Below, piece after piece: positions 3,055 to 63,874 of a stretch of 64,000 nt of DNA (its first letter is position 1; each line of letters opens with the position of its first letter). The notes under the pieces were generated by a model. It was not told the DNA's origin. It made no database searches and was given only the letters and a program-made list of their open reading frames with translations. A program made the translations under genes and the position numbers. This DNA comes from Azorinus chamasolen (lineage: Eukaryota > Mollusca > Bivalvia > Cardiida > Solecurtidae), in contig OY755252.1 in assembly GCA_963576725.1 (NCBI GenBank), forward strand, positions 23,818,655 to 23,882,654, written 5' to 3'.

Positions 3055-3170
3055 CCGGAATCAAATAATAAGTTTCTGACATATTATGAAAACAAGTTTG
3101 CTTAGCATTCTACAACAAGCAGCATATTATGCCGCAGTAACTGTATCTACATGTATACATGTTTGTTGGT

Positions 3171-3706
3171 TCGTATTTTGCCTCCAGCTGACGATGCGAC
3201 ACCTGTCTATATAGCTCGTTGTGGTTCGTATTTGCCTCCAGCTGGCGATGAGACACCGGTCTATATAGCTCGTTGTGGTTCGTATTTGCCTCCAGCTGGC
3301 GATGCAACACCGGTCTATATAGCTCGTTGTGGTTCGTATTTGCCTCCAGCTGGCGATGCGACATCGGTCTATATAGCTCGTTGTGGTTCGTATCTGCCTC
3401 CAGCTGGCGATGCGACACCGGTCTATATAGCTCGTTGTGGTTCGTATTTGCCTCCAGCTGGCGATGCGACACCGGTCTATATAGCTCGTTGTGGTTCGTA
3501 TTTGCCTCCAGCTGGCGATGCGACACCGGTCTACATAGCTCGTTGTGGTTCGTATCTGCCTCCAGCTGTCAATGCGACACCGGTCTATATAGCTCGTTGT
3601 GGTTCGTATTTTGCCTCCAGCTGACGATGCGACACCGGTCTGTATAGCTCGTTGTGGTTCGTACATGTATCTGCCTCCAGCTGGCGATGCGACACCGGTC
3701 TATATA
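3171..3706. repeat. 54-bp tandem repeat, about ten units
   Basis: Ten units contain TTGCCTCCAGCTGGCGATG and CTCGTTGTGGTTCGTA at a steady 54-bp spacing. Because 54 is a multiple of three and the unit has few stops, long frames stay open on both strands (for example an 18-residue repeat containing GSYLPPAGDATPVY). Units differ by point changes, and edge units carry 1-bp insertions that break frame. I read it as a minisatellite next to a retrotransposon end, not a protein gene. Confidence 0.85.
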
Positions 3707-3708
3707 AC

Positions 3709-4236
3709 TCCCGTATAACACAATTACGCACTTCTTGCCATAAATTGAAAATTGAAACTGGTCGCTATGGTAGACATCGTATAGAACGGCAACAGAGACA
3801 CTGTGATATATGTGGCAGTAGATATATTGAAGACGAGTTTCATTTATAGGTGAAAAGTACAAGGTTGTTAGACAAAGATATATTTCAACTTATTGTAGAA
3901 CGAGGCCAAATATGTTAAAACTGACTCAGCTTTTAAGTTCCAACGATGAAGTTGAAATTTCAAAGCTAGTAACGTACGTTTCATGTGCACTTAAAATACG
4001 CAGTAACCTTCTTTCTGCTTAAAGTATTAGAAAACGTTCCAAATTTTTTACCCTCCGCGTAATGTCATACATGTATTAGCATGTATTTTATTAGGGGTTG
4101 AATGCTAAAATTCTGTTTTATGTGCTCAAGCGGGTGCTTGACTTTGATTATACCTTGTATTGTACAATGTATAGGGATGATAAACTCTATATGTTTAAAT
4201 CCAAAATAAAGTGTATTCTTATTCTGATTCTGATAT
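3709..4236 (+). pseudogene. Non-LTR retrotransposon 3' end with zinc-finger C-terminus
   Basis: The first part translates to HKLKIETGRYGRHRIERQQR and then CDICGSRYIEDEFHL. This is the Cys-rich segment commonly found after the reverse transcriptase of metazoan non-LTR retrotransposons. A stop or frameshift at about 3849 breaks it. A second frame from 3855 reads KYKVVRQRYISTYCRTRPNM and ends KIRSNLLSA-stop at 4022. The 3' part carries AATAAA near 4205 and an ATTCTGATTCTGAT tail, a short-repeat tail typical of such elements. The reverse transcriptase itself is absent, so this is a 5'-truncated dead copy. It abuts the 54-bp tandem repeat. Confidence 0.65.
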
Positions 4237-11112: not shown

Positions 11113-11350
11113 TTAACCCTTCTCTTGCTGAATTTTAAAATGTATTTCTCCTTCTTTACCGATGCCCTGTTGTATAATTACATATATCTTCACTGTGTAC
11201 ACGTATTTCGCTGTTCAATCACTGCTGTGGAGTGCACTGGTTGCACAATCAACTTGTAAATAGTGCAGACCCTGATGAGACAGCTCTCTCATCTGGGTCT
11301 TCACTATTTATAGGTAGGTATATTGACATGAATAGCAAGCGAAGGGTTAA
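11113..11350 (-). mobile_element. TTAA-bounded MITE, family F copy 1
   Basis: Bounded by TTAACCCTTCTCTTGC and AGCGAAGGGTTAA with TTAA on both sides. One end has an AT-rich arm (AATTTTAAAATGTATTTCTC) and the other GTATATTGACATGAATAGC. The core is GATGAGACAGCT facing TCATCTGGGTC. This is the most frequent family here, with seven further full-length and two partial copies. Confidence 0.8.
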
Positions 11351-12799: not shown

Positions 12800-13129
12800 T
12801 ATAATTTTATTATCTTCTACATGAGCCAGCCGATCTCAGTCCAAGGTGTTTCCAAAGGCGTGAAAAGGCATATGTATTTTAAGCGAATGGTATACCCGTA
12901 CCTGTAGTTCATTTCGTTTGGTGGACATTCCGTAACAGATTCCGTTACTTGTTATGCAAATAAAAATTGAGAATTGTGGAAAACGATGTAACGTAGCGGC
13001 GAAACGGTTATCTGTTTCTCTGAAGTATGCGTATTTGCGGGGTAGGAACTGGGCTGTATTTGCTTAAGAGATGATACAGAATTGATTCTACAAGTTATGT
13101 TATGGTTCACACTTCCCGTGTACATATCA

Positions 13130-14420
13130 CAACAAAGACCAAGCAAATTAATATCCAGTCTGTCATCATTACATACTGTCACACAAATGACCCAGCTAAT
13201 TAATACACAGTCTGTCATCATTACATACTATCACACAAATGCCCCAGCTAATTAATACACAGTCTGTCATCATTACACAAGGTCACCAAAATGACCCAGC
13301 TAATTAAAATCCAGTCTGTCATCATTACATTATGTCACAAAAATGCCCTGCTAATTATTACACAGTCTGTCATCATTACATAATGTCACCAAAAAGACAC
13401 AGCTAATTAATATCCAGTCTGTCATCATTACATACATGTAATGTCACAAAATGACCCAGCTAATTAATACACAGTCGGTCAGCATCACATAATATAAAAA
13501 GTGGCCCTGCTAATTACTATCCAGACTGTCATCGTTACATCATGTCACAAAAAGGACACAGCTAATTAATATCAAGTCTGTCAGCATTACATCATGTCAC
13601 AAAAATGACCCCGCTTATTATTATCTAGACTGGCATCATGATATAATGTCACAAAAACGACCCAGCTAACTAATATCCAGTCTGACATCATTACATAATG
13701 TCATAGACATGACTCAGCTATATAAAACACACTATGTCATCATTACGTAATGTCACAAAATTGCCAAGCTAATTAATACACAGTCTGTCATCATTACATA
13801 ATATCACAAAAATAACCCAACTAATTAATACACAGCTGGTCAGCATCACATAATATAAAACAGTGGTCCTGCTATTTACTTTCCAGACTGTCATCATTAC
13901 ATCATGTCACAAAAAGGACACATCTAATTAATATCCAGTCTGTCAGCATTACATCATGTCACAAAAATGATCCAGCTAACTAATATCCAGTCTGCAATCT
14001 TTATGTGATGTCATAGACATGACCGAGCTAAATAAAACAGTCTTGTCATCATTACATAATGTCATAAAATTGCCCAGCTAATTAATACACAGTCTGTAAT
14101 CATAACATATAGTCACAAAAATGGCCCAGCTAGTTAATATCCAGTCTGTCATCATTACATAATGTCACAAAAATGGCCCAGCTTATTAATACGCAGTCGG
14201 TCAGCATCACATAATATAAAAAGTGGCCCTGCTAATTACTTTCCAGGCTGTAATCATTACATAATGTCACAAATAGGACACAGCTAATTAATATCCAGCC
14301 TTACATCATTACATAATGTCATAGAAATGACCCAGCTAAATAAAACACAGTCTGCCATCATTACATAATGTCACAAATATTACCCAGCTAATTAATATCC
14401 AGTCTGTCATCATTGCACGC
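13130..14420. repeat. Satellite array, about 53-bp unit, roughly 24 copies
   Basis: Units follow the pattern CCAGCTAATTAATACACAGT, then CTGTCATCATTACATAATGT and CACAAAAATGA. Unit length drifts by a few bases (52-54). Some units alternate TATCCAG with ACACAG, and a variant with CATCACATAATATAAAA recurs three times (near 13480, 13845, 14205), about 360 bp apart. That suggests a higher-order period of about seven units. Non-coding. Confidence 0.85.
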
Positions 14421-20107: not shown

Positions 20108-20356
20108 TTAACCCTTCGCTTGCTATTCACATCAATATACCTACCTGTAAATAGTGAAGACCCAGATGAGACAGCTCCTGCAGGAGCTGTCTCATCAGGG
20201 TCTGCACTATTTACAAGTTTGTTGTGCAACCAATGCACTCCACAGCAGTGATTGCACAGAGAAATAATTGTACACAGTGAAGATATATGTAATTATACAA
20301 CAGGGCATAGGTAAAGAAGAAACATGTATTTTAAAATTCAGCAAGCGAAGTGTTAA
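20108..20356 (+). mobile_element. TTAA-bounded MITE, family F copy 4
   Basis: TTAACCCTTCGCTTGCTATT to AGCGAAGTGTTAA, both TTAA intact. The core AGCTCCTGCAGGAGCT is perfectly palindromic. The right arm carries TAATTATACAACAGGGCAT. Confidence 0.85.
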
Positions 20357-20814
20357 GAATATAAACAGGCTATATGGAACTTATATGCTGTATTCAAGGA
20401 TGTTGTAACTCAAGGGATGCAAGGATGAATATCGATTACTTTTATCCGTAGCCTATAATGACATCTGTAAACAGTATACACCCAGTGCATAGAATACATT
20501 TAATTAATTAATGCTTTCCTCCTTAAAACCTGTATAAATATATATATGAAGCCTTTATAGATTTGCCAAAATATATTGTTAACAGACAGTTTGTAAACAT
20601 AAATATTTTACAGTAGAAATTATGAATACATATTTTGGTTACAAAGGACGTACCGTGCATTGATGAAATATTAAGATATTACATCCATCAAGCTATGTAA
20701 TCATTCTGTAACACCTTTACACGTTCAATATTTTGTCGTGCATAACAATTTCACAACGATTTATTTCTTTCTTTCATGTATATTACTTTATACCAGAGCA
20801 TCAGCTGAACATTA

Positions 20815-22850: not shown

Positions 22851-23374
22851 GTGCATCTGTGGACGAGTGGTTATGGTCTTCGACTGACAATCGCTTAGCC
22901 CCTCACCACTGTGGCTTTCAGGTTGGGAATGGAATAAGTGTGAGGTTGGGCGCCCATAAACCGGTTTAATCCCCCATTGACTTTTGTCACACCGTTCCAA
23001 GGCGGTACTTCCATCTTCCACCTATTGTATGTTTGTTTTGTCTTTGTGCGTCTCTTGATGTTTTTATAGTTATGTACATTTGCTGTTTCCTTGTGTTGCT
23101 GTTCGTGTTCGGGCGACTGTTTGTTCTGTATGTGGTGTTTCCTGCATGACTCATTTTTGTACTTTTGAATCCTGATCTGGGCATTTGGGTTTTTCATGTG
23201 AGGAAGCCTCCCAGCTGGCTTGCAGAAGTTCGGTTGTTCTACTCGAGTACAAAATAATTTGTTACGTGCAAAGAAGAATCTCTGGGGTCTTCCTCCACCT
23301 GGAATTCGATGGACGTCGTGATTTGACTGAAATACTGTTAAAGCGACGTAAAAATCGATAAAACTAAATCGAGA
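22851..23374 (+). mobile_element. tRNA-headed SINE split by an N insertion
   Basis: The 5' part (22851-22922) has a tRNA-like A-box region, GACGAGTGGTTATGGTCTT. The 3' part (23167-23374) resumes at GAATCCTGATCTGGG and continues AGCCTCCCAGCTGGCTTGCA, CTCTGGGGTCTTCCTCCACC and GTTAAAGCGACGTAAAAATC. This order (tRNA head, conserved middle, CGACGTAAA tail) resembles the molluscan V-SINE RUDI. The B box is cut at GGTT by the inserted N element, giving a near-exact insertion site. Confidence 0.65.
22923..23166 (-). mobile_element. N-family repeat inserted in a SINE
   Basis: In reverse it runs from AAAAGTACAAAAATGAGTC to CACACTTATTCCATTCC, about 244 bp. Because it interrupts a recognisable SINE, both boundaries are defined to within a few bases. 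This is the clearest delimitation of the short form of N. Confidence 0.7.
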
Positions 23375-28149: not shown

Positions 28150-30994
28150 TCCGACACCAGTTAGAATTCAGACTTTTGTAAAAGTATGCAGTATAAACCC
28201 TTGATCAGTCCAAAACAAGGTTCTTTCTATTAGCGACTATATTGTCTCAAATGACTTAGATGTGGTAGCCGTTGCAGAATTTGGATCGGTAGTTCTGTAG
28301 ACAAATCGAACATGTCCCTCGCTGCCATGGCAACCGTGGCGGCGAGGTAGCGGTCATACATAAGGCTTCAGTAGGACGTCGCCTCCATGCACCATCAATA
28401 TATGGTGATTTCTCAATTTCGAGTACATGGACTGCACCTTAAGTATCCGAGATTTCACTCTACGCCTAGTAACCGTTTACAGACCACCACCATTGCCGGC
28501 AAATGGTCTATAAACCGGCGATTCTCTTGATAATGAATGTCCACTTTTCCTATCTAAATTTGCGACCTGTGAAAGACGAGTCATCATTGTAGGGGACTTA
28601 AACATCCATCTTGACAGTCAAAATGACAGGAACACAACTAATTTTGCTAGTACACTAGATTCAATATGGATTGCAACAGCATGTGGATGAAGCCTCTCAT
28701 ATTGGTGGACATACCCTTGATGGTGTTATCACGAGAAACGGTGATGACTGTGTGTCAAACATTGAAGTCACCGATCCATGAATATCTGACAGTACTGGTA
28801 CAATTTCGCCCGATCATTTTTCTGTAACTTTTGAAGCAAAGGCGGCTAAACTTCCTACAGTGAGAAAAACTATTGCATTTCGAAAGCTTAGGACAATTAA
28901 TGTCGACTCATTTAAAAGAAATCTCCTCAACTCAGATACCATCAACGCAAGTTTGCAAATGACAGATGTTGATGAGCTGGTTAACACATATACACAGACG
29001 CTAGCACCATTGTGTACTAAAACCATAACTCTGAGACCGTCATGTCCGTGGTATTTCATTCTCAGTGTTGTTATATTTTCTGGTCCTTCAGGATCATTAG
29101 TTTTGATGTTAATCGATTTGAAAACTGAATACTGCTTAAGCCGGTGCTAGGGGCGTGAGTAGTGTTGCACTTGTATTTACTACTCATGAACAGACTCAAT
29201 AAAACCGAGTCTGCATTTGTTGTCTTTTTGCATTTCTACTTTTGCTTTCGAAGGATCACCTATTTTCAGAAAATATTCCCAGGACCTGCACGATGCCAAA
29301 CATGTATGGTGCAAAATGGAGAAAACATGGAGAAAAGTCCAGACTCTCAAAATACTATCAGCTGTACACAGAACAGTGTGTCAAAGTAAACAAGCTGTTG
29401 GCAAAGTCAAATGTTGATTTCTACTCCAAGAAAGTAGAATCAAAGAGGCTTTTCAAAGTCACTAAGCACCTGCTAGGTACAGCTAGTGACATCACATTGC
29501 ATTCATCCACCGAACAACTTACACAAGACTTCAGTGACTTTTCTGTTGACAAAGTGGGCAAAATACGGGCACATATTGCATCAGACACTGTATCCAGAGC
29601 CCCAGTTATCACGGAAATGCAGCGTGCAACGAACGCTTTAGATTGTTTTGTTACAGCTTCAGAAGAAGAAGTAGAACAAATAATTAAGGTATCCTCCTGC
29701 AAGTACTGTGAACTGGCTGCAATACCTACTTGGCTGTTACAGTCATGCCTTGACGAAATTCTGCCGATTCTGACAATGTTTTTAAATTCCTCTTTAGATA
29801 CTGCCTACGTTCCGAAAAGTTTTAAGGTGTCACATGTCAAACCTCGTTTGAAGAAACCGGATCTCGATTCAAATGAACTTAGAAATTATAGGCCTGTATC
29901 GAATTTGCCATTTGTCTCCAAAGTGTTAGAAAAGTGGTCGACAAACGCATTGAATCCCACTTGACCTCAAATGAACTACATGGGCACCATCAGTCGGCAT
30001 ACCGAAAGCATCATTCAACAGAGACTGTTCTCCTGAAAGTTCTAAACGACATGCTTCAATCCCTAGTTAAAATGAAATTACAGTTCTGGTCATGCTTGAC
30101 TTATCGACTGCATTTGACACTTTCGATCATGAAACTCTGCTAAAACGCCTGGGAAAAAACTTCAGAATCACTGGGAAACCCCTTGAGTGGATAACCGCCT
30201 ACCTGAATGACCGCTATCAAATAGTCTCAGTAGATGGAGAACTGTCAATTCCAGTTAACATGAAAAATAGCGTGTCACAAGGATCGGTCTTATGACCAAA
30301 GCACTACATCATGTACACGAAACCTCAATCTGCAGAAACCATGAGCCTAACCACCATTTTTATGCCGATGACTCACAGTTATTCCTGTCCGTTAAGCCCA
30401 AGGGCATTTCCAGTCAAAAAGAAGCTTTATCGCGAGTTGAGGACTGTCTCAAAGAAATAGTCTTTTGGATGTACCAGAACATGCCGAAGCTCAATACTGA
30501 CAAAACTGAGGGCATCCTGTCATACAAAAACACAGAAGTACTTGCAGATGTTGATGTGCAAGTAGGACCTTCAAAGGTCTTTGTGTATAAAGAATCTCGG
30601 TGCATGGCTCGATTCACAAATTGATATGACACCACATTTCAATACTGTGTGCAGGTCTAGTTATGCACAGCTCCGGCAAGGCCAAATTCGAAGGTACCTC
30701 TCAACTAATGCTACCAAGACCTCTCTTGTTACATCAAAAATAGACTACTGCAATTCACTGCTGCATGGAATTTCAAACAACTCACTCGGAAATGTCAAAG
30801 AGTACTAAGCACAGCCGCCCGCATTATAACAAGAACTCCTCGATATAATCATATCACACCGCTTCTGAAGGAACTTCACTGGCTTCCGGTTCATCATCGG
30901 ATTGAATTCAAAGTTTTAACACTTACATATAAAGTCATGCACTATGAATCTCCCAAGTACATTGTCGACATGCTTGACGTGTACAGGCCATGCT
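28150..30994 (+). pseudogene. CR1/jockey-type LINE, endonuclease and reverse transcriptase
   Basis: Non-LTR retrotransposon polyprotein, broken by many frameshifts and stops. The AP-endonuclease part has VVAVAE near 28270, VTVYRPP near 28475 and VGDLNIHLDSQND at 28589 (the GDLN motif). The reverse transcriptase has KSFKVSHVKPRLKKPDLD and NYRPVSNLPFVSKVLEK (29815-29935), HGHHQSAYRKHHSTETVLLK, LDLSTAFDTFDHETLL (30095) and FYADDSQLFLS with the catalytic YADD at 30361-30372. The downstream SKIDYCNSLLHG and ITPLLKELHWLPVHHRIEFK blocks are present. A P element interrupts it between RPSCPW and the next block, and the 3' end is replaced by an N element at 30995. Confidence 0.8.
29051..29272 (+). mobile_element. 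P element inserted in the LINE
   Basis: TTCATTCTCAGTGTTGTTAT to AAGGATCACCTATTTTCAG, about 222 bp. It lies between the LINE motifs RPSCPW and DLHDAKHVWCKMEKTWRK, so both edges are known to within about ten bases. AATAAAACCGAGTCTGCA is present, as in the BEL copy. Confidence 0.7.
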
Positions 30995-31245
30995 TTAAAA
31001 GTACAAAAATGAGTCATGCCGGAAACACCACATACAGAACAAACAGTCGCCCTAACAGCAACACAAGGAAACAGCAAATGTACATAACAATAAAAACAAC
31101 AAGAGACGCACAAAGACAAAACAAACATACAATAGGAGGAAGATAGAAGTACCGCCTTGGAACAGTCAGTGACAAAAGTCACTGGGGGGTTAAACCGGTT
31201 TATGGGCGCCCAACCTCACACTTATTCCATCCCCACCCTTAAAAT
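30995..31245 (+). mobile_element. N-family repeat truncating the LINE
   Basis: AAAAGTACAAAAATGAGTC to CACACTTATTCCATCCC. It replaces the LINE C-terminus just after SPKYIVDMLDVYRP. N contains an open frame (STKMSHAGNTTYRTNS) that is similar in the 23166 copy, but also many frame breaks in other copies. Confidence 0.65.
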
Positions 31246-43764: not shown

Positions 43765-44016
43765 TTAACCACTCGCTTGCTATTTATGTCAATATACCTA
43801 CCTGTAAAGAGTGAAGACCCAGATGAGACAGCTCCTTCAGGAGCTGTCTCATCAGGGTATGCACTATTTACAAGTTGATTGTGCAACCAAATGCACTCGA
43901 CAGCCGTGATTGCATGTGCGAAATACTTGTACACAGTGAAGCTATATGTAATTATACAACGTGGCATGGGTAAAGAAGGAGAAATATATTTTAAAATTCA
44001 GCAAGACAATGGTTAA
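43765..44016 (+). mobile_element. TTAA-bounded MITE, family F copy 6
   Basis: TTAACCACTCGCTTGCTATT to AGCAAGACAATGGTTAA, TTAA on both sides. The core AGCTCCTTCAGGAGCT is nearly perfect. Confidence 0.8.
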
Positions 44017-50592: not shown

Positions 50593-50842
50593 TTAACCCT
50601 TCTCTTGCTGAATTTTAAAATACATTTCTCCTTCTTTACCAATACCCTGTTGTATGATTACATATACCTTCACTGTGTACAAGTATTTCGCTGTGCAATC
50701 ACTGCTCTGGAGTGCACTGGTTGCACAATCAACTTGTAAATAGTACAGACCCTGATGAGACAGCTCCTGCTTGAACTGTCTCATCTGGGTCTTCACTATT
50801 TACAGGTAGGTATATTGACGTGAATAGCAAGGGAAGGATTAA
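50593..50842 (-). mobile_element. TTAA-bounded MITE, family F copy 8
   Basis: TTAACCCTTCTCTTGCTGAA to AGGGAAGGATTAA, TTAA on both sides. The 67-residue frame here recurs in copies 9 and 10 because the element is repeated, not because it codes. Confidence 0.8.
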
Positions 50843-54540: not shown

Positions 54541-54790
54541 TTAACCCTTCGCTTGCTAATCGCGTCAATATACCTACCTGTAAATAGTGAAGACCCAGAT
54601 GAGACAGCTCCTGCAGGAGCTGTCTCATCAGGGTCTGTACTATTTACAAGTTGATTGTGCAACCAGTGCACTTCGCAGCAGTGACTGCACAGCGAAATAC
54701 TTGTACACAGTGGAGGTATATGTAATTATACAACAATGCATGGGTAAAGAAGGAGAAATGTATTTTAAAATTCAGCAAGCGAAGGGTTAA
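54541..54790 (+). mobile_element. TTAA-bounded MITE, family F copy 9
   Basis: TTAACCCTTCGCTTGCTAAT to GCAAGCGAAGGGTTAA, 250 bp with TTAA on both sides and a perfect AGCTCCTGCAGGAGCT core. It sits at the upstream edge of the LINE fragment. Confidence 0.9.
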
Positions 54791-56115: not shown

Positions 56116-56340
56116 TTAACCCATTCCCTCATAGGCTATTTTAGATACAACCTTTTTGAATAAATCTACCGAAAAGGAGCATTAACTAGAGAAAAGGACA
56201 AATTTAGAATTTTGTAGTTTCAAACAATTGTGATAAATATATATGCTCCTATAGCAGCAAATGCTCTATTTATCACAATGGTTTCACAAAGTGACTTTTA
56301 CAGAGTCGTCAAAAGTCGTCAATATGAGGGAATGGGTTAA
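56116..56340 (+). mobile_element. TTAA-bounded MITE, family E copy 7
   Basis: TTAACCCATTCCCTCATAGG to GAGGGAATGGGTTAA, TTAA on both sides. The core has lost part of its left half (ATATATGCTCCTATAGCAGC). Confidence 0.8.
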
Positions 56341-56412
56341 AACACCTCAATGATGAATGTGTTTTAGTAGAACCTATGTTTGGCGGTCATTCGATTATTG
56401 AATATAGGAGTC

Positions 56413-56627
56413 TTAACCCTTTCGCTGTCAAACTCTGTCGTCTGCTAACTTTGTCGTCTGCTACAAATTTTCATTTTTTTGATTTTCTTCATTTTTATTC
56501 CAAAAATATAGTAACAGTAACAAACAGTTTGGATCCTGATGAGACGCCGAGTTACTCGGCGTCTCATCTGGATCCAAACTGTTTGCATAGTTAATCACAT
56601 ATCCGGCATTGGTAGCGAAAGGGTTAA
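56413..56627 (+). mobile_element. TTAA-bounded MITE, family G copy 2, best preserved
   Basis: TTAACCCTTTCGCTGTCAAA to GGTAGCGAAAGGGTTAA, TTAA on both sides. The core GAGACGCCGAGTTACTCGGC is perfectly palindromic and extends through GTTTGGATCC. GTCGTCTGCTAACTTTGTCG is characteristic of the left arm. Confidence 0.85.
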
Positions 56628-56925
56628 AAAGTAGAGGGTTGCTGAATGTAGGATAAAAGCAGTGCAAAAAGCTCATACAACCTTCATTATCTTACCTCCT
56701 ACTAAATTCTTTTCGTTCCATTGGTCAATACAGGTCACGAGAAAACCCCATAGATTCCTTATAGGCTGGGTCCTAGTAGTGGTTACCGTAGCACCCTCCC
56801 CCCCCCCTAGACTTTTTTTTCATGGGTACCAAATTGTTCGTTGGGGTCCTCAGAACACATTTTGAGCATGCCCCCCCCCCCCCCCAAAAAAAAAAAAATA
56901 AGTTTGTCCCAGCTATGTTTTATTT

Positions 56926-58575
56926 AACGGTTTCCATGGTAACCCGAGGTAATTTTCGAAACTACCTTGGTTCAGAAAATGCGTAATAACTTTGCTTTTA
57001 GAAGCAATAGGAGGACAAAACAAGTACCAAAGTAAAGCAGAGACATATAGCTTTAATATGATATATGATTATAATATTCATAAATGCATTCTTACGAATA
57101 TTAATGAGGAAGTAAAAAATATGCGGTTTTTTAGAAAAAAAGGAGTTTGTTGTTTAGTCTGAGAGGCTTATTAATGCACAGAAATTATTGAATTTAGGTT
57201 TAAATTGTTTGTTTGGGTCCTCAGAACACATTTTGAGTATTTCCCCAAATAATTTTGTCCCATCTATGTTTTATTTAACGGTTTCCATGGTAACCAGTGG
57301 TAAATTTCGAAACATCCTTGGTTCAGAAAAGGCGTAATAATTTGCTTATAAAGGCGATAGAAGGACAAAACAAGTACCAAAGTAAAGCAGAGACATATAG
57401 CTTGAATGTGATATATGATTTTATTAATATTCATAAATGCTTTCTTATGAATATTAATGAGAAATTAACAAAATGCGGGGGGGTTAGAAAAAAAGGAGTT
57501 TGTTGTTTAGTCTGATGGGCTTATTAATGCACATAAATTATTGAATTCAGGTTTAAATTGTTCGTTGGGGTCATCAAAACACATTGTGAGCATTCCCCCA
57601 AAGTAACTTTGTCCCATATATGTTTTATTTAACGGTTTCCATGGTAACCCGTGGTCAATTTCGAAACATCATTGGTTCAGAAAATGCGTAATAATGTTGC
57701 CTTTAGAGGCAATAGAAGGACAAAACAAGTACCAAAGTAAAGCAGAGACATATAACTTGATTATGATATATAATTTTAATAATATTCATATATGATTGCT
57801 TATGAATATTAATGAGGAAGTATAAAAATCCCCCTTTTTTAGAAAAGGAGTTTGTTGTTTAGTCTTAGATGCCTATTAATGCACAAAAACTATTGAATTC
57901 AGGTTTAGATTGTTCTTTGGGGTCCGCAAAACACACTGTGAGCATTTCCCCAAAAACATTGTGTACCAGCTATGTTTTTAACGGTTTCCATGGTAACCCG
58001 AGGTAAATTTCGAAACACCCGTGGTTAAAACAATGCGTCATAACTTTGCTTTTAGAGGCAAAACAGGATAAAATAAGAACCTAAATAAAGCAAAGACATA
58101 TAACTTGAATATGATATGTAATTTAACTAATTTTCATAAATGTATTCTTATGAATATTAACGAGGAAGTAAAACAATCCGGGTTTTGTTTAGAAAAAAAG
58201 GAGTTTATTGTTTAGTCTGAGTGGCCTATTAATAAACAAGAGTTATTGAATTCATGTTTGAATGTTTTCATGTGATCATACAAGGAACATAAACTATCTT
58301 TGTTGCAGGTAATATTTCTATAACGCATACATATTTCAGCTGTTTTGCATATAATGTGCGTAAAGGAATAAGCAATTTTCTCTGAGCATTGTATTTAGTA
58401 TTATTTTGAGTATAATATCGTTTCTGTGATTTATTTTACGTAAAATACCAAACAAATTGTACCAAAACAGACGAGAGTAGAGGATCATTACTTTGTGTAT
58501 ATAATTGATTTGTTCATGTCTTTTGACTATAAATGCCATATTTATGAATATTAATGAGATGTAAAAAGAAATACA
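56926..58575 (+). repeat. Left arm: four tandem units of about 350 bp
   Basis: Units begin AACGGTTTCCATGGTAACC at 56926, 57277, 57631 and 57980. Each runs through GAAAATGCGTAATAACTTTG, GGACAAAACAAGTACCAAAG, AATATTAATGAGGAAGTA, AGGAGTTTGTTGTTTAGTCT and TTCGTTGGGGTCCTCAGAAC. Beyond 58260 an inner segment (GCATATAATGTGCGTAAAG, TATTTTACGTAAAATACC) pairs with the right arm. Homopolymer C and A tracts near 56870-56900 mark the first unit. Confidence 0.85.
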
Positions 58576-58639
58576 CTTAAATTAGCCGTTCTTATCTGTT
58601 ATTTAATTAAAATCTAAAAATTTAAAGTTATTTAGTAGA

Positions 58640-60590
58640 ATCCCCTCTCTCTGGAGAGAGGAGGCTGTCGACCCAGAGGGACACGATAGCCCTCCTCTAC
58701 AATAGAGAGGGCCAAAGGGTCCTGAGTGATAGTGCGCCACATTGATGAAGGATCGGATTGGAAAGGGGCAGAAAGCGCGTGTCCCTAGGGCTGGGGTCTA
58801 GAAGGCCCAGAACCCTGAGATACCAATCCTGAGTTAGGAAGAAAAGGGAAGGGTCCTAACCGGCCCTTGGCCGGACTCGCTGAAAGACAGAATACGGTCT
58901 GGTTGTCTTACCTTTCTTGGGAGGTCCCGCAAGAGGCTTACCTTCAACCTTAGGATTTTTTAAAAAAAAAACCAGACCCAAAGCGGGGGGGGGGGGGGGG
59001 GGTCCTGGTAGAAGCCCTGTCAGCTCTTTCTCCTTAACGTTGCCACCGGAAAGTAGTTCGGAGGCAAAGAGTCCTACATACTAGAGGAAGGTGTCACGGC
59101 GACCGCGGGGCATATTCGCTGTCGATGAGGGCCATTGACCTAAGGCCAGTTGAGAGAGAGAGAGAGAGTGTGTGGGGGGGGGGGGGAGGGAGGCCTAGTG
59201 CCTGCCCTTGGGCTGTCGGAACCAAGTGATGGGATCTGATAAAACATCCCAGGTCGATTTTCAATTGAAGCCAGGGAGCCCTTGGCCGTAAGAGTTTAGC
59301 GGACATGATCCACCCAGTTGCCGGGCTGGCACAAAAGTCTTCGTCCAGGTCAGGCAAACGGGAAAGAAGTCCCCTGGAAGGAGAAAGAGACTCCCTAGAT
59401 TTAATTAGGTTAGGGAGGTCCACTTTTTCGACTGACACTAGCACGGAAGAGGATAGAAGACCCCTGTGAATAGGATTCAGGGGTCTAAGGCAGACAGAGG
59501 GTGGGAGGATTCTAAATCAATCTTCACACACCTTCTCAATAGAAATGTATTGATGTTCAGAATCATCAAAAGAAGAAGAGAACTAAGCCCCGTCTACATC
59601 TGAGTGAGAGGCTTCCACAGATTCTGATTCCCTTAAAAATAGGATTATTCCTAGGAGCCATAATGGACAAAGTGTCTTCCTGCTCTCCCTCAAAATCCGC
59701 CCTGGTGAACGCCACGGATGGCAGCACCCGGGAGGAGTGGGACCCGCCACAGACATAGAAGTGTGGACTGTGGGATGTACTCACAACATGCCCGGAGTGG
59801 GATGTAAGCCAGAACGAGCTTGTGTGTGGGGGGGGGGGCCGAGAGGAAAGGGGAATGGGTATCACTGATGGGGAGTCCCATGACTTTGCTGGTCAGGTCG
59901 CCAGTAAGGTGAAGCTTGCTGGTTCCCAGAATGAGTGTCGGCTGGCGAGAGCGACCAGCAGGCGAATCTGAGGAGGAAGAGCGATGTCTTCGCATAGAAG
60001 AGTAATGATAAGACCTCGATCTGCGCCTGCGATGAGAGCGGAGTGAATGCTGGTTCCCATTAGAAGAATAAGAAGGTTTTTACGCCTCCTACGGGGTGGG
60101 GTGGGATGGGGCGGGGGAGTACGAAGTGTATTCAGAAGATGAAGAGTAATTGCAGGGTCTAAATGACCAAGAACGTTTAGACTTAGCCAGAGCAGCTTCC
60201 TGTTGACTTTCACCACTGTAATGCGGTGTACAGACAGAATACCCAGTAGAAAACTATCAACTGGGGAATCGACTGCACCAAACGGACTGTTGACGAAAGA
60301 GATTTTAAAGAAAAAGCAGGCTTCTTCTGGGCTTTAGAAGACAGTGATTTGTCTGTTGCTAGGGAGTCGCTGACCAACGAGAAGAATACTTCTTCCATCG
60401 GGCAGCAAGCTCCCACGTCTCCAATGTCCAGAGGGATGAAACTGGACAGGGAGCTGAAACGGAGCATCCGCAGCAGGCCAGACACACTTACTGAGTTGTC
60501 CAGCCTGCCGCGAAATGCCCACAAGAAGCCTTGCGTTGCTCTGGCATGCCATCCTGTGGTAAATAATCAAGCAAATGCATAAGACATCGC
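58640..60590 (-). pseudogene. DIRS-like retrotransposon fragment: gag and start of RT
   Basis: On the minus strand from the right: a Cys-rich segment (ASCGHFAAGWTTQ, VCLACCGCSVSAPC, LWTLETWELAARWKK) near 60400-60540. Next is an Arg/Ser-rich stretch (HRRRRSRSYHYSSMRRHRSS) near 59960-60050, then PPDL/LPDLDEDFCA-like blocks near 59340. The last blocks are KPLAGPPKKGKTTRPYSVF (about 58880-58930) and WRTITQDPLALSIVEEGYRV (about 58690-58750). DIRS-type elements carry a Cys-containing, SR-rich gag, and their RT opens with a block like SDPWVLSVVRxGYxxPF, which the last segment resembles. Stops, frameshifts and G/C homopolymers break it. The RT catalytic part and tyrosine recombinase are absent. Confidence 0.5.
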
Positions 60591-60964
60591 GAGTAAGTTC
60601 GAAGTCATGCAAGGCTAATATGGGCAAACATAAGCTGATGATTGCAGCCGAGATGCTATATATATTTTCTATTGTATTGCAAAACACTCATAAAAGTAAT
60701 ATTCTTCATAAAACATGCATGAAGCTCAATTCCTCCGCTGTATTTTCTTACAAGAAATGTGTTGTTCACATATATATATATTGCAATATCATAGAAAAAC
60801 TTACTTTCCTACAACAGTTCACATTCTCATTAATATCCATGATTTTGAAAATAATATTCATTATCTACATATTTATATACATGAACATCAATATCTCTGT
60901 TTCAGTCAGTATCAAGCTCTGTATAGGTTAACTAAAATAATCTCAGATAAAACGAACAGCTCAT
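60591..60964. other. AT-rich spacer inside the snap-back element
   Basis: Overlapping plus-strand frames (60575-61023) are AT-driven (runs of Ile, Tyr, His). No feature recognised. Confidence 0.3.
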
Positions 60965-62262
60965 TCAAGTGTGTTTATTTTTACATCTCATTAATATTCA
61001 TAAATATGCATAAATATTCATGAACCCAAAGTAATGACCTTCTGCTCTTGTCAATCTTTGTTCAATATCTGGTATTTTACGTAAAATAAATAATAGAAAA
61101 GATAGTACACTCGAAACAATGCTACATATAGTGCTTATGTTAAATTGCTTATTCTTTTACGCACGTTATATGCAAATTAGCTCAAATATACATGTTTTTT
61201 TTTAAGAAATATTACATGAACCAAGGATGTTTTTTCTTTGTATGATGATATTAAAACATTTAAACCTGCATTCAATAACTCTTTGTATATTATTAGGCCT
61301 CTCAGACTAAAAACAAACTCGTTTTACTAAAAAAGCATTTTTTACTTCCTCATTAATATTCATAAGAATGCATAATCAGTATTAATAGAATTACATATCG
61401 TAATCAAGCTATATGTCTCTGCTTTACTTTGGTTCTTGCTTTGTCCTTCTATTGCCTCTAAAAGCAAAGTTATGACGCATTTTCTTAATCAAGATAGTTT
61501 CGAAATTTACCTCGGGTTACCATGGAAACCGTTTAATAAAACATAGCTGGGTCACGATTATTTTGGGGGAATGCTCAAAAAGTGTTCTGAGGACCCAACG
61601 AACAATTTAAACCTGAATTCAATAATGTGTGTGCATTAATAGGTCTCTAAGACTAAACAACAAGCTCATTTTTCTAAAACAGCGGGGTTTTTTACTTCCT
61701 CATTAATATTCGTAAGAATGCATTTATGAATATTAATAAAATCATATATCATATTCAAGCTATATGTTTCTGCATTAATTTGATACTTGTTTTGTCCTTC
61801 TATTGCATCTAAAAGCAAAGTTATTACGCATTTTCTGAACCAAGGATTTTCGAAATTAACCTCGGGTTACCCTGGAAACCGTTTAATTAAACATAGATGG
61901 GACAAACAAATTTGGGAAAATACTCAAAATGTGTTCTGAGGACCCAAACAAACAATTTAAACCTAAATTCAATAATTTCTGTGCATTAATAAGCCTCTCG
62001 GACTAAACAACAAACTCCTTTTTTCTAAAAAAAACACCGCATTTTTTTTACTTCCTCATTAATATTCATAAGAATGCTTTTATGAATATTAATTAAATCA
62101 TATATCATATTAAAGCTATATGTCTCTGCTTTACTTTGGTACTTGTTTTGTCCTTCTATTGCATCTAAAAGCAAAGATATTACGCATTTTCTGAACCAAG
62201 GTAGTTTCGAAAATACCTTGGAAACCGTTAAATAAAACTTACTAGGACCCAGCCTATTATGG
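60965..62262 (-). repeat. Right arm: three tandem units, inverted
   Basis: GGAAACCGTTTAATAAAAC-type unit ends lie near 61527, 61877 and 62221, with units of 345-350 bp. The block order is the complement of the left arm. The inner part (GGTATTTTACGTAAAATA, TTCTTTTACGCACGTTATAT) pairs with 58320-58450. Confidence 0.85.
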
Positions 62263-63624: not shown

Positions 63625-63874
63625 TTAACCCTTCGCTTGCTATTCACGTCAATATACGTACCTGTAAATTGTGAAGACCCAGATGAGACAGCTCCTGCTG
63701 GAGCTGTCTCATCAGGATCTGCACTATTTACAAGTTGATTGTGCAACCAGTGCACTTCACAGCAGTGATTGCACAGTGAAATACTTGTACACAGTAAAGA
63801 TATATGTAATTATTCAACAGGGTATGGGTAAAGAAGGAGAAATGTATTTTAAAATTCAGCAAGCGAAGGGTTAA
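63625..63874 (+). mobile_element. TTAA-bounded MITE, family F copy 10
   Basis: TTAACCCTTCGCTTGCTATT to GCAAGCGAAGGGTTAA, TTAA on both sides. The core AGCTCCTGCTGGAGCT has one change. Confidence 0.9.

Follow-up and report, generated by a model that had tools for sequence, protein, structure and literature searches.

The closest described systems to the element reported here are transposons with composite long inverted repeats. In Tetris of Drosophila virilis, each long inverted repeat consists of a flanking domain, tandem units of ~220 bp and an inner domain, and the published account presents the element as apparently non-autonomous, with a middle lacking coding capacity (PMC4079207). Galileo subfamily F of Drosophila mojavensis has long inverted repeats with direct tandem repeats of ~210 bp, and its copies with the longest repeats are described as non-autonomous (PMC3573991); THAP-domain binding sites are reported within the tandem repeats of Galileo in a further study (PMC3688188). 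Tm1 of root-knot nematodes carries Foldback-like composite inverted repeats around varied interiors (PMC3169594). In these three, complete copies are scarce or the copies differ in structure, so that it is undecided whether the arms serve a function or are a by-product of recombination. As to target duplications, a survey gives 3 bp for Zator and 3-4 bp for AcademX (PMC10045372).

We analysed a stretch of 64,000 nucleotides of contig OY755252.1 from the bivalve Azorinus chamasolen, hereafter the window, and consider it very likely that an element within it belongs to a foldback-type family of DNA transposons that is present in high copy number and probably non-autonomous. A preliminary description of the window was aware of no described family with this layout; Tetris (PMC4079207) and Galileo subfamily F (PMC3573991) share it. 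No published bivalve family with this layout was found in the literature that we covered, which lies mostly outside subscription papers and outside repeat databases such as Repbase, and a search with 12 bases of the terminus and their complement returned unrelated papers only.

Architecture of the window copy

The element had been placed at 56757-62262; it does lie there, and its exact bounds are 56762-62256, or 56759-62259 with the target duplication (Table 1). As proposed in the preliminary description, two inverted arms carry four and three tandem units, and we measure the unit at ~353 bp. Tandem Repeats Finder reports the left array at 56896-58263 (353 bp x 3.9, 84% matches) and the right array at 61254-62212 (356 bp x 2.7, 85% matches), and the two are inverted copies of each other in two registers, 81.4% alike over 1361 bp and 87.4% alike over 1016 bp. 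The arms are colinear in the alignment over ~1.35 kb, and the extra unit sits at the outer end of the left arm. Both arms also contain, in inverted orientation, an inner non-tandem domain with approximate boundaries, which was absent from the preliminary description.

Among the units of the window, L1 and R1 are 95.3% identical and pair in the tree with a support of 0.999, L4 pairs with R3 (support 0.998; 82.7% identity), and the identity of the other pairs is 75-88%. The right end is without the ~110-120 bp that two other copies, L031 and L032, have between the terminus and the first unit. The centre is GC-rich, as had been stated, with a GC content of 0.53 at 59001-60000, and is GC-richer than the arms.

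The matching 17-bp termini with TTA outside both are likewise present. The 17-mer TAGGCTGGGTCCTAGTA occurs on the plus strand at the left end (56762-56778) and on the minus strand at the right end with 0 mismatches; even with 3 mismatches allowed, the window gave no further match, and two matches appeared in none of 100 shuffles. In copies of the family the right end repeats the first 30 bp, TAGGCTGGGTCCTAGTAGTGGTTACCGTAG, in inverted orientation and nearly or wholly unchanged, and the 17-mer is free of mismatches in 27 of the 30 loci found by unit similarity, the window included.

The window contains other repeats. Two tandem arrays unrelated to the element lie at 3167-3710 (54 bp x 9.9, 93%) and 13127-14414 (52 bp x 24.8, with periods of 206 and 258 as well), and reverse-transcriptase gene fragments at 29203-31146 are LINE-like by eye. 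At about 56117-56343 and 56412-56627 lie two short elements with inverted repeats and TTAA at their ends (TTAACCCATTCCC and TTAACCCTTTCGC). We take them to be piggyBac-like from the motif, and both have further copies in the window. A dispersed repeat of ~250 bp has at least 7 copies in the 64 kb, 84-93% alike. Searches of the window for Rfam families (at the gathering score) and for tRNAs gave 0 matches.

Table 1 Parts of the element and copies of the ~250-bp dispersed repeat, in window coordinates. Units on the minus strand start at the higher coordinate.
Feature	Position	Strand	Basis
Left copy of the target duplication, TTA	56759..56761	.	
Left terminal domain; its outermost 17 bp equal the right end, its outer ~30 bp make up the family's terminal inverted repeat	56762..56830	+	
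Partial unit (profile positions 289-354)	56831..56916	+	nhmmer
Unit L1	56917..57266	+	
Unit L2	57268..57620	+	
Unit L3	57622..57972	+	
Unit L4, diverged, continues into the inner domain	about 57974..58299	+	
Inner non-tandem domain of the left arm	58264..58604	+	alignment
Centre, 2330 bp, partly GC-rich, common to other copies, without an intact recognisable gene	58605..60934	.	
Inner non-tandem domain of the right arm	60935..61254	-	alignment
Unit R3	61227..61542	-	
Unit R2	61544..61892	-	
Unit R1, 95% identical to L1	61894..62238	-	
Right terminal inverted repeat, 17 bp	62240..62256	-	
Right copy of the target duplication, TTA	62257..62259	.	
Copies of the ~250-bp dispersed repeat	54541-54790, 63625-63874, 50593-50842, 20108-20357, 11113-11350, 43765-44016, 47096-47341		

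Copies, target sites and arm units across the genome

The same termini are found at many other loci. The source genome, 137 contigs totalling 1.72 Gb, contains 830 + 837 matches to the terminus at up to one mismatch, as compared with 1 + 0 for the reversed control. Halving this count suggests ~830 copies, a figure that misses diverged copies and includes incomplete ones. The first 100 termini listed all lie on contig C1, and pairing by eye assigns 82 of them to 41 adjacent plus/minus pairs with a span of 3735-10183 bp and a median of 5667 bp; 34 of the 41 fall between 5053 and 6115 bp. The other 18 are unpaired; one of them (40441758) is the right end of the element of L012, whose left terminus has 3 mismatches.

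Each of the first 30 termini listed is followed inwards by a unit array, which starts after 61-70 bp and shows 3 or 4 units within the 1.5-kb pieces; these are too short for a fifth. A query with the unit gave 2049 first-look candidates in the genome, 40 of which were scored. The 29 other loci obtained by unit similarity mostly have four left units followed by the centre; L006, L014, L020, L021 and L026, among others, carry deletions or a smaller number of units; across copies, the number of units is mostly 3 or 4 per arm, with deletions in a few. A 37-mer of the arm had 0 exact matches in viral contigs.

Target duplications could be evaluated for 27 insertions: the window, L031, L032, 13 pairs on C1 and 11 insertions from a search for the right end, which was sought for 20, with 8 having none in the fetched piece and 1 being cut at its edge. 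The results show a 3-bp duplication in 24 of the 27. Among the 11 it is present in 9, that of L012 being part of a 6-bp match, and the exceptions are L015, which has TATA, and L021, which is without a duplication. The pairs, taken in order along C1, have 3 bp in 12 of 13 cases, and L061/L062 has 2 bp. In the 22 insertions with exact 17-mers at both ends the triplets are ATA (5), TTA (4), TTT (3), TAA (3) and ATT (2), with TGA, AAA, CAA, TCT and TAT once each; the remaining two of the 24 are ATA and TGA. Elements of the PIF/Harbinger group duplicate TWA. As TTA or TAA account for 7 of the 24 triplets, these are too varied for the Harbinger target to fit. The length of 3 bp agrees with Zator and AcademX, and it differs from the 8-10 bp of Mutator and the 7 bp of Galileo and other P-type elements, so that these latter assignments do not fit.

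We compared the joined flanks of the same 22 insertions with the window and the extracted loci. Six matched across the joint, L069/L070 and L082/L083 among them. Two of the six are clean: L064/L065 lies inside a dispersed repeat with uninterrupted copies at 30996-31242 and 22917-23166 of the window, each with one TGA, and L073/L074 has an uninterrupted relative in L074 with one TTA. For L024/L051 and L057/L058 the alignment has a gap at or near the joint, which is weaker proof of an empty site. Empty sites with a single target copy are therefore present for two other insertions of the family, in paralogous repeats. The family shares with the foldback class the long inverted arms, which contain tandem repeats and enclose a middle, and the movement as a unit with a target duplication (24 of 27, and two clean empty sites), and the initial reading of a snap-back transposon without a recognisable transposase holds.

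To follow the history of the arm units, we aligned 79 units taken from 14 elements; the numbering on the right side of L033 allows for a broken outer unit. Units at the same position in different elements are 94.5% (L2-L2), 94.5% (L3-L3), 95.0% (L4-L4) and 94.3% (R2-R2) identical, and neighbours within an element 90.2% (L1-L2), 85.5% (L2-L3), 78.3% (L3-L4) and 89.0% (R1-R2). Units thus group by position across elements, indicating that the array was assembled a single time, became fixed and only later spread with the family, with hardly any homogenisation afterwards as judged from the alignment. The exception is formed by L1 and R1, which are mixed in the tree (95.4% identity within elements, 94.4% between); this would fit an exchange between both ends, before or during amplification.

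Some loci have a more complex structure. At L019/L020 (contig C6, 36696352-36700293) two left arms stand face to face, and the outer flanks are identical inverted copies over the 60 of 60 bp compared; this has the appearance of a palindromic duplication with an element at its centre. The left flanks of L013/L017, L023/L027 and L025/L029 are identical for 76, 80 and 82 bp, respectively, before the first difference. Two of these are nearby pairs on C18 and one is a pair on C5 and C6, and all three were probably copied with their surroundings and not by transposition. In L033 the outer unit of the right arm is broken by an insertion, and Gypsy-like gag and polymerase frames, identified by eye, adjoin the broken arm (L033:6774-8999, reverse orientation).

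The centre of the element

The left part of the centre is matched in 26 of the 29 other loci, with no match in L019, L020 and L026. Identity to the window is 92.8-94.1% in L002-L005 and 82.5-87.4% in 22 loci, whose arms are 89.8-93.8% like those of the window. This recurrence indicates that the centre is not a local cargo. A query with the whole centre gave 1182 first-look candidates in the genome, 40 of which were scored. Some centres contain extra stretches, for example ~580 bp in L055, and in a longer copy (L088:2100-3350) the translation and GC content, viewed by eye, reveal an AT-rich, tandemly repeated stretch, a minisatellite.

Four centres were compared for traces of coding. Their 231 substituted columns are distributed 87/72/72 over the codon positions, only 16 of the 83 indels counted between pairs have a length divisible by 3, and all four share 57 minus-strand stop positions. 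The flat substitutions and mostly out-of-frame indels show no coding constraint in these centres, and intact coding is rejected for the four copies on the same grounds. On the other hand, the longest open frames were compared with dinucleotide shuffles of each copy's own sequence, in four copies that were not a random choice. The longest frame reaches 253 aa in L091 (equalled in 0 of 200 shuffles), 212 aa in L031 (3 of 200), 172 aa in L088 (5 of 200) and 146 aa in the window (26 of 200). Under mononucleotide shuffles of the window centre the frames look ordinary; under dinucleotide shuffles per copy, the comparison that we follow, those of three of the four copies are longer than chance, which makes it likely that the centre is a decayed coding sequence.

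An intact copy of the gene may exist elsewhere among the ~830. Five size-variant loci, L087-L091, have longer or rearranged interiors or deletions. In the hunt for an autonomous partner, 6 frames from L087, L088 and L091 gave no Pfam match, and neither a transposase nor an autonomous copy was found by Pfam and protein searches, the size variants included.

Proposed mode of movement and relation to known systems

In the mechanism that we propose, a transposase supplied in trans would recognise the ~62-bp terminal domain, of which the outer ~30 bp form the inverted repeat, would cut both ends at TAGG...CCTA, and would insert the element into an A/T-rich site with a 3-bp stagger. The arms, each composed of the terminal domain, a partial unit, 3-4 tandem units of ~353 bp and the inner domain, lie on either side of a centre at least ~2.3 kb long, and the whole moves as one block. 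We infer that mobilisation is of the cut-and-paste type and occurs in trans. The arms may help transposition, for instance by offering extra protein-binding sites, by analogy with Galileo. We looked for the terminal motif inside the units as additional transposase sites: 10 local-alignment tests with 500 shuffles each gave p values of 0.22-0.99, and an octamer common to terminus and units is attributable to chance. Matches to the terminal sequence within the units are thus no better than expected by chance, so a binding-site role has no support from the sequence.

The preliminary description had regarded the central piece as DIRS-like, and the element could accordingly be a DIRS-like retrotransposon or a derivative of one, with the arms as inverted terminal repeats, the centre as the first ORF and integration by a tyrosine recombinase. 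The inverted ends and the GC-rich centre with old coding traces would suit such an origin, as would the tyrosine recombinase matches at 148 places in the genome, suggesting that DIRS-like or Crypton-like elements are present in it. We nevertheless judge it unlikely. The 3-bp target duplications in 24 of 27 insertions and the empty sites speak against it, and target duplications are not known from DIRS elements. Pfam gave no match over the cut-off in 9 pieces of the window centre and 8 pieces of four other copies, and thus no reverse transcriptase together with a tyrosine recombinase inside the element in the pieces scanned; a Midasin AAA lid match (E 0.0084), below the Pfam cut-off, was discarded. 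Protein searches with the centre found no homolog among 7190 (E up to 1) and 6997 (E up to 10) word-sharing candidates, whereas a reverse-transcriptase fragment of the window found 11 proteins in the same database, the best named one from the clam Mercenaria mercenaria at 40% identity, which would suit a bivalve host. The core had no match in the rest of the window either, so that none of these three comparisons ties the piece to DIRS. A capture that took place earlier, in which the ancestor of a non-autonomous DNA transposon acquired a DIRS-like or other ORF piece before the family expanded, is a possibility of some weight, if not the one we would favour; it is the first option of the preliminary description, extended to the whole family. 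It is consistent with a centre GC-richer than the arms, with open frames beyond chance in three of four copies and with Arg/Ser-rich stretches in the frames, but the centre has no homolog in the Pfam, protein and window searches, the four centres share their 57 minus-strand stop positions, and a decayed transposase gene of the family itself would look alike.

The tandem ~353-bp units might also suggest ordinary satellite arrays that came to lie inverted by chance around unrelated sequence. This we find scarcely credible: the arrays are short, their start is the same at all of the first 30 listed termini, their units are position-specific in sequence, and 3-bp duplications surround the whole. 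The terminus counts, the paired spacing, the array at 30 of 30 termini, the duplications and the empty sites together argue for a transposon and not a satellite, and the suggestion that two arrays had inverted around a fragment is not supported, because arm, centre and arm recur together. The possession of its own terminal domain by each arm, and the 18 unpaired termini among the first 100 listed, would be compatible with a composite in which two one-armed elements, each mobile on its own, travel in pairs, but the other 82 stand in inverted pairs at a narrow distance, which makes such a composite very improbable.

Within the reading that we prefer, that of a foldback-type DNA transposon, we tentatively put forward a more specific history, in which a foldback family, belonging to a superfamily that makes 3-base staggers, formed its array once, froze it and spread it some hundreds of times with position-specific units. 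If so, the array would be a fixed component with a function at the ends, where the outermost units of both arms are kept alike, and not a by-product of ongoing repeat growth, and the family would show in a natural setting whether transposition gains from tandem arms. Long arms in inverted orientation also probably give rise to rearrangements; one palindromic copy (L019/L020) was seen.

By their descriptions, Tetris and Galileo differ from this family in duplication length, unit length, constancy of the array and copy number. Tetris makes 8-10-bp duplications of the Mutator kind, is represented by three structurally complete copies, and varies in unit number to the point of having grown into a satellite (PMC4079207), in contrast to the 3-4 units, 3 bp and hundreds of copies observed here. 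Galileo belongs to the P-element superfamily, with 7-bp duplications, arms of very variable length and known transposase relatives (PMC3573991), and Tm1 is of low copy number with 9-bp duplications and a Mutator-type transposase (PMC3169594). Zator and AcademX resemble the family in duplication length (PMC10045372), and there is no other tie to them. If duplication length is a fair guide, superfamilies other than Mutator and P would also seem to give rise to the foldback layout. The family comprises hundreds of copies that are much alike in length (~5.7 kb), keep a fixed array and show a clear 3-bp duplication, and it thereby offers the numbers for testing the function of the arms.
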